A stretch of DNA of 64,000 bases from Alkaliphilus serpentinus (GTDB lineage Bacteria; Bacillota; Clostridia; Peptostreptococcales; Natronincolaceae): contig NZ_WBZB01000012.1 in NCBI RefSeq assembly GCF_009017255.1, positions 1 through 64,000 on the forward strand, read 5' to 3'. Position numbers and translations under genes: made by a program. Under the pieces are notes generated by a model. That model worked only from the letters and a program-made list of their open reading frames with translations. It was not told the DNA's origin and did not search any database. Positions 5,161-56,176 of the stretch are shown one piece after another. The stretch's first letter is position 1. Every line of letters starts with the position of its first letter.

Positions 5161-5186
5161 CTGAGGGAGGATAAATCCTCCCTCAG
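5161..5186 (+). terminator. Terminator-like hairpin, first of a twin pair
   Basis: A perfect 12-bp stem, CTGAGGGAGGAT / ATCCTCCCTCAG, with a 2-nt loop. A second copy of the same core (AGGGAGG / CCTCCCT) followed by TTTTT stands at 5336-5359, after an intervening repeat element. Confidence 0.7.
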
Positions 5187-5331
5187 ACTGTTGAAAAACT
5201 ATCATATTCTTTGTTGCTGCAGAAATCCAACACTCTTGCGTATTGTTGTATACGCTGCAACCGCTGGATTCCTTTGCGCCTCGACTCTAACAGCTTTTGA
5301 ACAGTCTGGATGTTGTCGACTTTTTCAACAA
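5184..5331. repeat. MITE-like dispersed element, copy A
   Basis: Begins CAGACTGTTGAAAAACTATC and ends GACTTTTTCAACAA, giving imperfect terminal inverted repeats (GTTGAAAAA...TTTTTCAAC). An inner pair, ctgttgaaaa/ttttgaacag, is also visible. It shares its first ~35 bp and a central ~28-bp block (TGTATACGCTGCAACCGCTG...) with a second copy at 16699-16858. No believable gene lies inside it. Confidence 0.65.
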
Positions 5332-5335
5332 CCTC

Positions 5336-5359
5336 AGGGAGGCTTTATCCTCCCTTTTT
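5336..5359 (+). terminator. Rho-independent terminator, second of the twin pair
   Basis: AGGGAGG (5336-5342), loop CTTTAT, CCTCCCT (5349-5355), TTTTT. Same stem as the hairpin at 5161-5186; also suitable, read from the other side, for the minus-strand gene ending at 5368. Confidence 0.75.
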
Positions 5360-7758: not shown

Positions 7759-7998
7759 ATGTTTAAAGAATTAAAAAGTGATGAATTAATTGAACTTAAT
7801 GGCGGAAAATTAGATACTTGGGAGAAAGAAGTTATTCTTCAGACAGGAGTTGCCACAGTTCTTGCAGTTGCGTCAGCTCCGGCAGCTGTACCAATAGCTA
7901 CAGCAGCTTTGATTTCTTATTGTATAAATAATGATAATAAGAACTTTTCCTTAAAAAATAAAGGTTGGGAAGATTACGCAAGAAGATATAGACGATAA
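7759..7998 (+). CDS. Double-glycine leader peptide, putative class II bacteriocin or signal peptide
   Basis: 79 residues. The leader MFKELKSDELIELNGG fits the double-glycine pattern (hydrophobic residues at -4, -7 and -12, GG at -2/-1), so cleavage is expected after Gly16. The mature 63 residues have an Ala/Val-rich hydrophobic core (about 28-53) and a basic, aromatic tail (WEDYARRYRR). A single Cys argues against a disulfide. AAAGGAGGG lies at an ideal distance. The C39 exporter at 8887 is the natural partner. Antimicrobial activity is an inference; an autoinducing or toxin role is possible. Confidence 0.75.
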   Translation: MFKELKSDELIELNGGKLDTWEKEVILQTGVATVLAVASAPAAVPIATAALISYCINNDNKNFSLKNKGWEDYARRYRR

Positions 7999-8332
7999 TT
8001 TAGGTTACTAATATGCAGAGGATTATATCTATAGTTCATCATATAATCCTCTGCCTCACAATAAAACTATATCAAATATTATAATTACATCTGAGCACTG
8101 AGAGTTATTACACTTTTAAATACTGAATAATATATTAGTATAATAATTTAGTTAGGGTAGCAAAATGGCATTGAACTAAGGGAATACAATTACTCCATAT
8201 TTCATACTGCTAATAATAAAAATAAGAAAGTGTTTATTACTTGTTATTATTTGTAAATTTAAATTTATGTAGTTAAGCTAATTATTATATTTAATAGATT
8301 AACAATATATGTATAGTGAAGGGAGTTTTTAT
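7999..8332. other. Intergenic region after the peptide gene
   Basis: Contains a 14-bp perfect hairpin (8015-8054) just after the peptide stop. Beyond it is AT-rich sequence with no open frame having a ribosome binding site until 8333. Confidence 0.5.
8015..8054 (+). terminator. Strong hairpin after the peptide gene
   Basis: GCAGAGGATTATAT pairs perfectly with ATATAATCCTCTGC around a 12-nt loop. No T-run follows, so it may work as an mRNA 3'-end stabiliser or a partial terminator. Confidence 0.6.
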
Positions 8333-8611
8333 ATGGGATATTATCATGTTTTAATATTTTCTATTACTTTAGTAATTGAGTACATGTTATTAAGAAAATT
8401 TTTTTATGGGAAGATTACCAAAACTAATACTAAGAAATATGTTTTGACTTTAGCTATAATGATAATAAGTTTGTTTGCAATAAATAGAATAGGAATTATC
8501 GATTTTATATTCAGAGCCCCTTATATTAGCGTCATTTTAGCTACAATAATATGCTTAATTATTATAAAAGGTGAAAGTATTAATCAAGCTAAAGGTAAAA
8601 GTAACAATTAA
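8333..8611 (+). CDS. Small membrane protein, possible immunity protein
   Basis: 92 residues from ATG 8333 (MGYYHVLIF), which has AAGGGAG seven bases upstream; an earlier ATG at 8309 lacks one. Three hydrophobic stretches (about 2-18, 38-53, 60-79) separated by short basic loops. No recognised family. Size, hydrophobicity and position between the double-glycine peptide and its exporter resemble bacteriocin immunity proteins, which is inference only. Confidence 0.55.
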   Translation: MGYYHVLIFSITLVIEYMLLRKFFYGKITKTNTKKYVLTLAIMIISLFAINRIGIIDFIFRAPYISVILATIICLIIIKGESINQAKGKSNN

Positions 8612-8617
8612 AAAAAG

Positions 8618-8635
8618 GGGACAGTACGCTGTCCC
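8618..8635 (+). terminator. GGGACAG hairpin, copy 2
   Basis: GGGACAG, loop TACG, CTGTCCC, preceded by an A-run right after the stop of the small membrane protein. Same stem as 7482-7500. Confidence 0.55.
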
Positions 8636-8886
8636 GCTATCTCAATCACTAGACAAAAAAGTCAGGTTAATTTATAAATATAAACAGTTATATCAGTAAC
8701 TTACAGTATTTAAAGGCCGAGTATAGCAATATAGTGAGCTCTAAAAATACATAAAACTATTACGGAAAAGATTATTTAGTTCCAGGTATTACACTTCAGT
8801 AGTTATTAAGAAGTAGCTGAGATGCCAAGGGGTATTGATTTAGCAAGTAGAGAATTCTAATATTATATGAACAAACGGAGGAAGTA

Positions 8887-11135
8887 ATGTTTAAGAAATT
8901 ATTTAACGATCTATTTAACATTAATATGAAGTATTTACTGAGAAAATACCACTGCATCAAGCAACACGACATTACTGATTGCGGAGCTGCCTGTCTAGCC
9001 ACTATATCAAAGCAGTATGGCTTAAAGATACCCATAACAAAGATTAGAGAAGTGGCAGGCACAGACAAACAGGGTACAAATGCCTATGGCGTTATTAAGG
9101 CAGCGGAACAGTTGGGCTTTACAGCTAAAGGAGTGAAGGGCGACAAAGAGGCTTTTTTCACTGAATTTCCACTTCCTGCTATAGCCCATGTAGTTGTAGA
9201 TAGTTCGCTATTACATTATGTTGTTATACATAGAATTGCTAAAACAGAGGTTATTGTAGCTGATCCTGGAAAAGGGATTGTTAAGTACAAACCTGAGGAA
9301 TTCTTCAAAATATGGACAGGGGTTCTTATATTAATGGTACCTAATATGGGTTTCCAAAAGGGAGACGATACTAAAGGAATTTTTAAAAGGTTTTTTGGTC
9401 TTTTAAAACCCCAAAAGGTACTGTTATTACATATTTTCTTAGCCTCCCTATTATACACCCTATTGGGGATACTAGGCTCTTTTTACTTCAAATTCTTACT
9501 TGATGATATTTTACAGTATAATTTAAAGAAAACCCTCCATATAATTTCAATTGGAATAATCATACTTAATGTATTTAAAATACTTTTAGATGCCTTCCGG
9601 GCCCACTTAATGCTTTATTTAAGTCAAAGGCTTGATATACCTTTAATTTTGGGCTATTATCAGCATGTACTGGAATTGCCTATGAACTTTTTTGGGACAA
9701 GGAAGGTAGGAGAAATCATAGCAAGATTTATGGATGCTTCTAAGGTAAGGGAAGCAATTTCAGGGGCAACCTTAACAATAATGATTGATACCTTAATGGC
9801 TATTGTAGGGGGAGTAATTTTATATACTCAAAACACAACCCTCTTTGGAATTACTGTAACAATTGCCCTATTATATGGAGGAATTGTTTTTGCGTTTAAC
9901 AAACCCATTAAAGATATTAATAGAAGGCAGATGGAGGATAACGCCCAATTAACATCCTATCTTGTGGAGTCATTAAACGGTATTGAAACCGTTAAGTCCT
10001 TCAATATTGAAAGAAAAGTAAATATAGAAACGGAAAAGAAATTTGTTAACTACTTAAAAGTGTGTTTAAAGGTGGAATTATTGGCAACCTTCAAAGCTCC
10101 CTTTCAAGTATAATAGCATCAGTGGGGGGCATAGCAATATTATGGGTTGGAGCCTACAATGTAATTAATGGTAATTTGACAGCTGGGCAGTTGATAGCCT
10201 TTAACGCCCTTCTTGCATATTTCCTTGAGCCAATTCAGAATCTTATTAATCTACAACCAATGATGCAAACTGCAATTGTAGCCTCCGACAGGCTAGGTGA
10301 AGTCCTTGATCTTGAATTAGAAAAAAAGGACGATGAAAACCAAAAAATAAAACCATCAACCTTAAAGGGAAAAATAGAAATAAAAAATGTTGATTTTAGA
10401 TATGGGACAAGACAATTGGTCTTAAAAAATATAAGCATGACTATTAATCCCGGAGAAAAGATTGCTTTGGTTGGGGAAAGTGGTTCGGGAAAAACAACCC
10501 TAGTTAAACTCCTTTTAAATTTCTACGACTGGGAAAAGGGAGATATATTAGTTAATAACTATAATATAAAGGATATTAATTTAGATACTCTCAGAGGAAA
10601 GATCGCATATATTTCCCAAGATATATTTTTATTTAGTGGAACAATAAAGGAAAATCTTTTAATGGGGAATTTAGATGCAGAGCTAGAGGAGGTAATAGAA
10701 GCTTCTAAACTAGCTAAGGCCCATGATTTTATAAATGAATTTCCATTAAGATATGAAACAATGTTGGAGGAAAATGGAACAAATATTTCTGGCGGACAAA
10801 AACAAAGACTTGCAATTGCTAGAGCCATCCTGAAAAATCCTGATATCTTTATTATGGACGAGGCCACCAGCAATCTAGACTCCATTACCGAAAAGGCCAT
10901 TGAAAGAACTATAGACAAATTGAGTGAGGGTGTAACTACCATTATAATAGCCCACAGATTAAGTACTATTAAAAGGTGTGATAAGATTTATGTTATGGAG
11001 AAAGGGAAATTTATTGAAGCAGGGACTCATAAGGAGTTGATGGAGAGTAAAGGTAAATATCATAAACTATGGAAAGAACAGCTTCCTGACACTGAAGAAT
11101 TAATACAAGAATGTGAAGCAGGAGGTGTAGTTTAA
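8887..11135 (+). pseudogene. C39-peptidase ABC exporter (PCAT), apparent frameshift
   Basis: Two overlapping frames make one bacteriocin-type exporter. The first (8887-10113) has the C39 peptidase with DCGAAC (Cys32), His110 and Asp126, then membrane helices. The second (from about 10062 to 11135) has the last helices and the ATPase: Walker A GESGSGKTTL, signature ISGGQKQRLAI, Walker B IFIMDEATS, and H-loop IAHRLST. Near 10060-10068 the frame shifts; one extra T or loss of one GT in the GTGTGTTTAAA tract would restore a continuous protein of usual length (about 740 residues). If real, the exporter is inactive; a sequencing error is possible. The family removes double-glycine leaders while exporting peptides. 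Confidence 0.85.
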
Positions 11136-11136
11136 T

Positions 11137-12617
11137 ATGAAGGGTATAATACAGGATATCAAAGATTTAACCGATAGCAGAGAATTGCTATTATCAAAAC
11201 CCCATCCTTTTATTTCAATATTTATTTACCTACTTATAATAATTATTACAACAGCTACATTATGGACATATTTTGGCGAAATGGATATTTATATTAAGAC
11301 AAGTGGAGTGGTAAGGCCCAGTGAAACTGTAAGTACAATAACTAATAAGGTATCGGGGAATATTATTGAAATTCATTATTCAGAGGGAAAAAAAGTTCAA
11401 CTGGGAGATTTATTATATATTATAGATAATTCTCAGATGATATTAGAAAGGGATGCCGTTGCGTGGGAGCTTAAAATAGCTTCACAGGAGCTTGGTAACC
11501 TTATTAAATTCAGTGAAAACATAGATTCCGTAGAAAACCCTTTTAATAAAGATGTTGAGGAAGAGGAGGATTACTATTATAAATTCTTAAAATATAGAAC
11601 TGATTATGATCTGGAATTAAAGAGATTAGAATTAGAAAGCAACAGAGTCGAGTTAGACATTAACCAGTATACTTATTTAAGCAAACAATTGGATAATCTA
11701 ATAAAACTAAGAGAATCAATAATTGTAAAATCAAATTTATTTGGAGAATCCAACTCAATTTTTTATACAAAATATGAAATATATAGACAGAATATTGAAG
11801 AACTTGAAACACTTATGGCAATTAATGAAAATGAATATGAAGTTGCTAAAGTGCTTTTTAACTCTGGGGGGATTTCCAAAAAGGAGCTTGAAGATAAAGA
11901 GAATACAGTTAAGCAAATGGATCTAGATCTAAAAAAATATAAAAATGATTATTCGCTATCAGTATATAGCTCAATTGAGGAAATTGAAGTTAGATTAAGG
12001 GAGCTTCGAATTAATATTTTAAATAATGAAGTAGGACTAGAAGTGTCTAATTTAACACCCGAAAAGCACAAAATTGATACACTGATTCAAATCGATGACA
12101 AGATTAATTCATTATTAGATAAGGTTGAAAGATTAGAAAAGGACTTAGAAAAGCATGAAATAGCCATTAAAGATTCTAGAGTTTCATCACCTAGAGATGG
12201 AACTGTCAATGTAAATGTAGAACTAAGCGAAGGAGATTATCTGCAAAATGGGATAGAGGTTTTAACCATAGTGCCAGAGACGGGTTCTAAATTTAAAGTT
12301 CAGCTTTTTGTTTCTAATAAAGATATAGCTTCCATAAAGGTTGGGGACGAGGTTAAATATCACTTTCAAGCATTACCCTATAGAGAGTATGGAGAATTAA
12401 CTGGCGAAATAACATCCATAAGTACAGATGCTAAAATCGATAATCAGAGGACTGTAAGCTATTATATTGTAGAGGCTTCAATAGACAACAAGCCCCTTTA
12501 TAGTTATAAGGGGGCAAGGCTGAAGTAAAAGTAGGTATGCTGAGTGAGGCACAGGTAATAACTAAATCAAAGAAAATATTACATTACCTCCTTGAGAAGA
12601 TTAATTTAAGAGAATAA
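11137..12617 (+). pseudogene. HlyD-family secretion accessory protein, apparent frameshift near the end
   Basis: One membrane helix (about 25-45), a lipoyl-like half (VSGNIIEIHYSEGKKVQLGDLLY), a long coiled coil (about 150-350), a second lipoyl half and a beta-barrel. This is the membrane-fusion partner of a C39 exporter. The open frame stops at 12528, but the next frame continues with KAEVKVGMLSEAQVITKSKK to TAA 12615-12617, which is the normal end of such proteins. Adding one G to the GGGGG run at about 12510 joins them. It begins 2 bp after the exporter stop, so the genes are coupled. Confidence 0.82.
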
Positions 12618-16698: not shown

Positions 16699-16858
16699 CA
16701 GACTGTTGAAAAACTATCATATGCTTTGCTGCCGCATAAACCTTGCACTTTCATTAACCTCTGAGTGACAGACCCTACCATATTACAGCCTTTACTGTAT
16801 ACACTGAAACCACTGGATTCCTTACCAATAGAAGTCTCTGCTATTCAATGACTTCAAC
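16699..16858. repeat. MITE-like dispersed element, copy B
   Basis: Shares CAGACTGTTGAAAAACTATC at its start and the block TGTATACACTGAAACCACTG in its middle with the element at 5184-5331, and ends ACTTCAAC. The regions between the blocks have diverged. No open frame of note. Confidence 0.6.
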
Positions 16859-16861
16859 CAC

Positions 16862-16890
16862 AGGATATTTATTATAAATATCCTTTTTTT
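16862..16890 (+). terminator. Rho-independent terminator
   Basis: AGGATATTTAT / ATAAATATCCT with a minimal loop, then TTTTTTT. Probable end of the AI-2E/DUF3267 transcript, separated from the stop codon by the repeat element. Confidence 0.75.
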
Positions 16891-36638: not shown

Positions 36639-37115
36639 ATGAAGAAAAAGTGGATAGTTTTAGCACTGGCGGCAATGATGATCTTGGTTATGGCATCCTT
36701 TTCCTTTGCAGCTACAGATACGGAAGCTGGAAATCGATGGTTTGGGGGCTTTGAGAGACATAATGGTCTTCGGTTTATGATGGAGAAGCTTGGTTTAACA
36801 GAGGAAGAGATTTTGGATTTGAGAGATAGTGGTAAAACCATGGTTGAGATTGCCGAAGAAAATGGGATAGACATAGATGAATGGCAGGACACGATGCTTG
36901 AATATAAATATGAAAGAATTGATGAACTGGTAGAAGAAGGTACATTAACTGAAGAAGAAGGAGAAGAGTTAAAAGCGCTATTGAAAGAAAGAATGGAAAC
37001 ATGCCCTGGAAATGGAAGATTTTTTAATAAAGGTGCTGGCAGAGGCTTTGGCAGAGGCTTTGGCAGAGGCTTTGGCAGAGGAATGATGGGCAGAGGATTT
37101 GGTTGGCAAGAGTAA
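36639..37115 (+). CDS. Secreted DUF2680 domain protein with GRGF repeats
   Basis: 158 residues. A cleavable signal peptide (MKKKWIVLALAAMMILVMAS, ending SFA-A) is followed by two helical DUF2680-like units (LRFMMEKLGLTEEEILDLRD and RIDELVEEGTLTEEEGEELK) and a tail with GRGFGRGFGRGFGRG, encoded by three perfect 12-bp repeats at 37038-37073. Function is not established. The tandem operator upstream and the two-component system downstream suggest that this is a target of that system. TAGGAGG before ATG 36639. Confidence 0.75.
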   Translation: MKKKWIVLALAAMMILVMASFSFAATDTEAGNRWFGGFERHNGLRFMMEKLGLTEEEILDLRDSGKTMVEIAEENGIDIDEWQDTMLEYKYERIDELVEEGTLTEEEGEELKALLKERMETCPGNGRFFNKGAGRGFGRGFGRGFGRGMMGRGFGWQE

Positions 37116-37134
37116 ATGTTTTAGGGTATAATGG

Positions 37135-37152
37135 AGGCACCTAAGGGTGCCT
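37135..37152 (+). terminator. Terminator-like hairpin, first of a twin pair
   Basis: AGGCACC-taag-GGTGCCT just after the DUF2680 gene. An identical stem with loop GAAG and a T-run stands at 37377-37398. Confidence 0.7.
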
Positions 37153-37376
37153 GAGATTATCGAAAAACCCCTATATTTTAAAACTGAGAAATTGGCTCTC
37201 GGTCAAAAGGCAGGATGAACTCAAAAATTACAGGTATTTACAAAACTCACCTTCGGCTCAGACATTGAAAATACTATTCTGTAATTTTCTCCTTCTTTTA
37301 TTCTTATCTCCGCAGATTTCTCATTATTTAAGAATATAGGTGTTCAATTATAGTTTTATACTTAATCGATGGCCTG
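37153..37376. repeat. Palindromic insert between twin terminators
   Basis: 224 bp without a gene. Its halves are imperfect inverted copies: CTATATTTTAAAACTGAGAAAT near 37170 against GATTTCTCATTATTTAAGAA near 37315, and AAAATTACAGGTATTT near 37227 against AAAATACTATTCTGTAATTT near 37268. It could fold into one long hairpin. Confidence 0.6.
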
Positions 37377-37398
37377 AGGCACCGAAGGGTGCCTTTTT
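37377..37398 (+). terminator. Rho-independent terminator, second of the twin pair
   Basis: AGGCACC-gaag-GGTGCCT followed by TTTTT, about 25 bp before the response-regulator gene. Confidence 0.75.
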
Positions 37399-55851: not shown

Positions 55852-55898
55852 AAATCTTTATTTGTTTAATTTTTACATTTAATTTACATTTATTTCAT

Positions 55899-56176
55899 CG
55901 GTGATGACGGGAAGAGTAAGCCTTTGGAATCAGCAAAAGAGAGCCGGGTAAGGTGAAAGCCGGTGCTGATGAAAATAGCTGAAGATGGCCCCTGAGCCTC
56001 TTGGTTGAGGAAGCATAAGCTTCTTAGGTTGAGACGGATTTGCCTCCGTTATATAGGCAAGGTAAATCAATGAATTTACCTATTGAGTTTATTGTTGCAA
56101 AACAGTAATAAACTAGGGTGGTAACGCGATTAATCCTCGTCCCTATATGATTATATAGGAACGGGGTTTTTTATTT
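55899..56176 (+). ncRNA. T-box leader of metG, Met specifier
   Basis: Stem I begins near GTGATGACGGGAAGAG; the specifier loop reads GAAGATGGCCCC, giving the Met codon ATG at 55985-55987. The T-box core AGGGTGGTAACGCG is at 56115-56128. The terminator pairs CCTCGTCCCTATAT with ATATAGGAACGGGG, then TTTTTT. Uncharged tRNA-Met would stabilise the antiterminator and turn on metG. Confidence 0.93.

Follow-up and report, generated by a model that had tools for sequence, protein, structure and literature searches.

Among the described mobile elements, IS1272 and TnSha1 of the IS1182 family select a terminator or hairpin as target by its structure and not by its sequence (PMC4923244; PMC5678879). Terminators were reported as targets by Furi et al. 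(PMC4923244). IS1272 targets hairpins but deletes them, and duplication of the whole hairpin was drawn by Wan et al. (PMC5678879) as a hypothetical outcome of an attack on its 5' feet. The elements F1 and F2 considered here share the type of target but differ in outcome: with IS1272 and TnSha1, the target hairpin is wholly or partly lost and no target duplication is generated, whereas around F1 and F2 the hairpin is duplicated. At the loci described here, the pathway drawn by Wan et al. (PMC5678879) seems to be realised in nature. No report of whole-hairpin duplication was found in the open literature searched; specialist IS databases may record it. Bacterial MITEs, including the pneumococcal RUP, BOX and SPRITE elements (PMC10969869; PMC3049150), are like F1 and F2 short, palindromic, intergenic, multicopy and thought to be mobilised in trans; whole-terminator duplication was not found described for them in the literature searched.

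The window, i.e., the whole stretch of 64,000 nucleotides of Alkaliphilus serpentinus DNA that was analysed, contains F1 and F2 each enclosed between two hairpins. Both are very probably non-autonomous MITEs moved by the transposases of one IS1182 subgroup, with a hairpin target that is read by structure and duplicated whole, because similar ends and the same whole-hairpin duplication are found in intact members of this subgroup. The ISBspe1-like elements (ISBspe1 and those of Photorhabdus, Xenorhabdus, Vibrio and Rhizobium) resemble F1 and F2 in the end type CAGRCTGYTGA, in the hairpin or terminator target and in the duplication of the whole hairpin. Their intact members encode a transposase of ~450 amino acids, whereas F1 and F2 are about 125-260 bp long and non-coding; multicopy and bounded by terminal inverted repeats, F1 and F2 have the features of MITEs.

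The F1 element of the window (5184-5335, no strand assigned) is a palindromic MITE of 152 bp with the ends CAGACTGTTGAAAAA and, as reverse complement, GAGGTTGTTGAAAAA. On its left lies a duplicated terminator stem-loop, AGGGAGGATAAATCCTCCCT (5164-5183, no strand assigned; AGGGAGG-ATAAAT-CCTCCCT), and on its right a complete terminator-like site with a T-run, AGGGAGGCTTTATCCTCCCT (5336-5359, + strand), whose stem-loop at 5336-5355 reads AGGGAGG-CTTTAT-CCTCCCT and is followed by TTTT. The earlier note had described the stem AGGGAGG/CCTCCCT on both sides of a MITE-like element at 5184-5331; the twin hairpins are indeed present, but the true element end is at 5335, ~4 bp beyond. The two flanks of this copy align with a score of 14, compared with a 99th percentile of 12 and a maximum of 17 for mismatched flanks. 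The pair by itself is only modest evidence for duplication, given this score against the control maximum, and it is the family-wide pattern that makes the duplication secure. The two hairpins (5164-5183 and 5336-5355) differ by one mismatch if one is inverted and by three if they are compared directly; the better inverted match is due to a flipped loop. The hairpin pair at another locus, L106, likewise has no mismatch inverted and three direct, the loop of one copy being flipped. An inverted second hairpin counts against simple duplication, which does not predict inversion, and suggests that the palindrome flipped once inserted or that the repair involved template switching. A third F1 copy in the window is decayed (16699-16840, + strand), with a terminator hairpin on the right side only (about 16862-16884).

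A like architecture with other sequence, which the earlier note had placed at 37135-37398, is formed by a second hairpin pair around F2, a 223-bp MITE at 37153-37375 (+ strand) whose body is unrelated to that of F1. The left hairpin copy, GAGGCACCTAAGGGTGCCT (37134-37152, + strand), reads GAGGCACC-TAAG-GGTGCCT and has no T-run behind it, while the right copy with its T-run, GAGGCACCGAAGGGTGCCT (37376-37398, + strand), has a stem-loop at 37376-37394 that reads GAGGCACC-GAAG-GGTGCCT, followed by TTTT. Most F2 copies have the family ends GAGGTTATCGAAAAA and, as reverse complement, CAGACCATCGAAAAA, of the same type as the F1 ends. Upstream of F2, the encoded protein has a C-terminal GRGF-rich repeat tail (37020-37113), which is not seen in the aligned orthologous loci of Alkaliphilus peptidifermentans and G002.

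Both elements belong to dispersed families. In the A. serpentinus assembly (3.29 Mb, 83 contigs), 46 stretches were matched by F1, fragments and hairpin-only matches counted, and 25 by F2, fragments counted. Of 40 other genomes searched, 12 also contain F1; most of these belong to the same family, and A. peptidifermentans DSM 18978 has many copies. Two further GAGGTTGTTGAAAAA sites, C6 and C10, were rejected as element ends and attributed to chance matches inside coding genes. An additional MITE family with ends similar to those of F1 and F2, TGAGATTGTTGAAAAAG/TCAGGCTGTTGAAAA, is present at locus L026 of a genome from a different family within the order (G026), between the twin hairpins GCTACTATTTATAGCAGCC/GGCTGCTATTTATAGCAGCC.

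Duplication was measured, besides the window copies, at 37 F1 and 20 F2 loci of the A. serpentinus genome with flanks, both sides being read in element orientation. A duplication was considered readable when the left and right flanks of a copy aligned above the 99th percentile of mismatched left and right flanks from the same genome; for F1 copies in relatives, this control was inflated by nested elements and was left out as a threshold. Of the 36 anchored F1 copies, 18 have a readable duplication, and so do 14 of the 18 anchored F2 copies (32/54 in total); the copies without one (18 and 4, respectively) are mostly old or diverged, truncated or nested. Every well-preserved copy has its own locus-specific hairpin, the same on both sides of the element, as in the perfect repeats AATAGAGCTTGCATTTTGCAAGCTCTATT of L031 and AAGCGATAGGTTAAAACCTATCGCTT of L037. 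Among copies whose bodies are 91-96% identical, the flanking hairpins are unrelated, the similarity between copies ending at the hairpin. A fold into a single hairpin was obtained for 69 of 72 duplications tested (17/18 for F1 and 13/14 for F2 in A. serpentinus, 17/18 for F1 in relatives and 22/22 for ISs). At either side, the median offset between duplication edge and stem base is 0. The duplications measure 13-47 bp, with perfect repeats of up to 40 bp, loop included, and their length correlates with hairpin span (r = 0.61 and 0.69 for F1 and F2 in A. serpentinus, 0.98 for F1 in relatives and 0.96 for ISs). The eight nucleotides past the right copy contain on average 4.6 T, compared with 2.7 in nearby background sequence; therefore, most targets look like intrinsic terminators. 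At many loci, an A-run also precedes the left copy, as would be the case if these terminators were bidirectional.

Empty sites were sought in relatives using the joined flanks as query, with the element and one hairpin removed; locus L044 was left out of this evidence. At the window F2 site, the orthologous loci in two related genera, A. peptidifermentans and G002, have the same two neighbour genes and one terminator, AAAACACCATATAGACTGGTGTTTTT and AAAACACCATATCTTTGGTGTTTTT, respectively (L310 and L311), without the element. A single-terminator site of this kind, for which the earlier note had proposed a search, was also found for the A. peptidifermentans F1 copy L087, where a congener (G007) has one hairpin and no element. 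At another A. peptidifermentans locus (L086), the same congener aligns across the junction, but there is no clear hairpin there. For the window F1, no clean empty site was found among the relatives searched, since the upstream gene is not syntenic in them and only the right-hand gene is. Three IS insertions of Photorhabdus thracensis correspond to one-hairpin empty sites in P. khanii, P. tasmaniensis and P. australis, which align gapless or nearly so (373 of 377 identical bases and no gap for the first). Two observations that the earlier note had named as contrary to its proposal, namely orthologous loci with both hairpins but without the element and hairpins unrelated on alignment, were not seen.

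Intact elements with the same behaviour were found among IS1182 relatives. In A. peptidifermentans, a multi-copy IS is bounded by GAGACTGTTGACAAAG and TGAGGTTGATTACAAACC; its terminal protein fragments fit the NCBIfam IS1182 model. Every end of this IS that was seen (10 right, 4 left) has a hairpin next to it, and at three pairs of contig ends the hairpin is common to both, giving the duplications ACATAGGTTTTACCTATGT, AGCGTCGTAGACGCTC and AGGAAAGTAGAACTTTCCT. Its ends, GAGACTGTTGACAAA/GAGGTTGATTACAAA, are similar but not identical to F1 CAGACTGTTGAAAAA/GAGGTTGTTGAAAAA, as are those of a hairpin-duplicating element from another genome of the order (G056), AGACTGTTGACAA/AGGTTGCTGACAA. One hairpin-duplicating element of the order has an asymmetric end pair, AGACTG / AGGTTG, as in F1. 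Relatives of the A. peptidifermentans IS were sought by scanning one genome per species, and hairpin duplications of 17-33 bp were found in P. thracensis (6 copies, excluding two with exchanged flanks), Xenorhabdus szentirmaii (7 copies), Rhizobium, Flavimaribacter, Litoreibacter, an Acidobacteriaceae genome and Paucisalibacillus. A hairpin is likewise duplicated around a Vibrio element and around the ISBspe1 copy of a Bacillaceae plasmid. Further twin-terminator elements, for which the earlier note had likewise proposed a search, occur at dozens of F1 and F2 loci, in relatives and around intact IS1182 copies.

Full-length transposases score 476-490 bits on NCBIfam NF033551 (cut-off 270). ISCfr1 and the IS1182 elements of Sinorhizobium and Roseivivax belong by annotation to the same transposase family as the hairpin group but have flanking repeats of 8, 6 and 4 bp, respectively, at sites without hairpins. 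In a tree of nine full-length proteins, from which partial and very divergent sequences were left out, they stand apart from the six hairpin duplicators, which lie on one side of a branch with support of 95/98, in a tree of long branches and few sequences. Whole-hairpin duplication is a property of one IS1182 subgroup spanning several phyla, not of the whole family. In P. thracensis, two IS copies (L198 and L200) bear each other's right-hand hairpin, which suggests recombination between them. Three others (L194, L196 and L197) are inserted in the same 16-17 bp hairpin, adjoining the start of an ORF that resembles an IS200/IS605 TnpB-type protein (MLRATKVRLYPTPEQ...); the IS seems to use the hairpin of another mobile element as target.

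That the hairpins belong to the elements as composite ends, so that twin hairpins would be mere element ends, can practically be dismissed. The window hairpins do lengthen the F1 terminal inverted repeats, into 35-nt arms with 89% complementarity, but near-identical bodies carry unrelated hairpins, similarity between copies stops at the hairpin, and the hairpin is already present at empty sites. The same observations refute the suggestion of the earlier note that the elements carry a copy of the hairpin, while its other suggestion, that insertion into a terminator duplicates the target hairpin, is supported by hairpins that are locus-specific, alike on both sides and single at empty sites. The note did not assign the elements to the IS1182 type. 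Stem-loop replacement as in IS1272, in which the target hairpin would be removed and nothing duplicated, has in its favour the same transposase family and the same target class (PMC5678879; PMC4923244), and several copies in which no repeat is readable could have arisen in this way. It is refuted for the copies with two hairpins and extremely improbable as a general explanation, as two full hairpins are kept in the readable copies and the Photorhabdus empty sites show one hairpin becoming two.

It is also highly improbable that the elements were inserted beside a terminator with a short duplication or none, the second hairpin being acquired later by selection or gene conversion. In its favour, a terminator is of use to the cell, and sequence could be exchanged between the two copies beside an element; however, the repeats are perfect over up to 40 bp including the loop, the junctions lie exactly at the stem base, and the same pattern recurs across dozens of loci as well as around ISs in distant bacteria. 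Moreover, the Photorhabdus IS copies are near-identical and their hairpin repeats identical, so that these repeats are young.

Under the preferred reading, of IS1182-type MITEs whose hairpin target is duplicated whole, the transposase would recognise a stem-loop, usually an intrinsic terminator, by structure rather than sequence. The substrate would be an extruded cruciform or hairpin. At the 5' feet of the stem-loop, each of the two strands would be joined to one 3' end of the element, and the ensuing gap repair across the hairpin would copy it whole on each side, so that the target duplication would have no fixed length and be as long as the hairpin. On balance, though with limited confidence, we favour the broader view that a clade of DDE transposases sets duplication length by the extruded target hairpin (13-47 bp) and not by a fixed stagger, attacking the two 5' feet of a cruciform, and that terminators thereby constitute a renewable safe landing site, each insertion regenerating its terminator.

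For the inferred substrate, a hairpin on one strand only, in lagging-strand or transcription-bubble DNA, is a tentative alternative to the two-strand cruciform. The targets are terminators, which sit in transcribed DNA, and single-stranded targets are known for other mobile elements. Two strand transfers one hairpin apart are, on the other hand, easier to envisage with close feet, as in a cruciform (pathway b in the model of PMC5678879). The present data fit both substrates alike.

While a fixed length of target duplication is the normal signature of a transposase, here the length follows the size of the target structure, which is strong natural evidence for the recognition of extruded hairpins in living cells. 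The deletion by IS1272 and the duplication seen here are linked as alternative outcomes in a single family, so that the question of the cut site becomes testable, and twin terminators provide a simple diagnostic for such insertions. Regarding the host, the copy beside the original T-run would stay a complete terminator, and the composite would also fold as one long hairpin ending in a T-run. In the window, the twin hairpins with F1 are predicted to form one long hairpin of -74.5 kcal/mol (z = -7.9) and those with F2 one of -76.8 kcal/mol (z = -5.0), both with the T-run at the end. Termination is probably kept after insertion. Because the copy at the T-run remains a complete terminator and the composite fold ends in a T-run, insertion probably does next to no harm to the host gene, and this suggests how a genome may hold dozens of gene-end insertions without loss of termination.

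The proposed link of F1 and F2 to the IS1182 subgroup rests on end sequence and behaviour. No intact transposase gene with the exact F1 or F2 ends was found in the 83-contig A. serpentinus assembly, and the families may thus be orphaned or their source unassembled. No relative of the A. peptidifermentans transposase was found in this genome at the threshold used, and an unguided inverted-repeat scan of the IS loci of the family gave mostly noise. The genome has only two IS1182-type genes, C42 and C54, with ends other than those of F1 and F2. Neither was retained as source: the C42 element has the ends TAGGTTGTTGCAAAAC/AGATAGTTGCAAAAC and a 12-bp repeat, TAATTTAGGAAT, while C54, with the left end CAGACTGCGCAAAAA, looks truncated, and neither matches F1 or F2 exactly.

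An Rfam search of the window returned only a T-box leader, elsewhere than F1 and F2, at 55895-56147 (RF00230, 102.5 bits). By appearance, 7759-12528 is a putative bacteriocin export cluster. It encodes a short peptide whose leader is of the double-glycine type (ELNGGK), a cysteine-peptidase-like ABC transporter that is divided between the overlapping frames 8887-10113 and 10062-11135, and a protein resembling a secretion adaptor.
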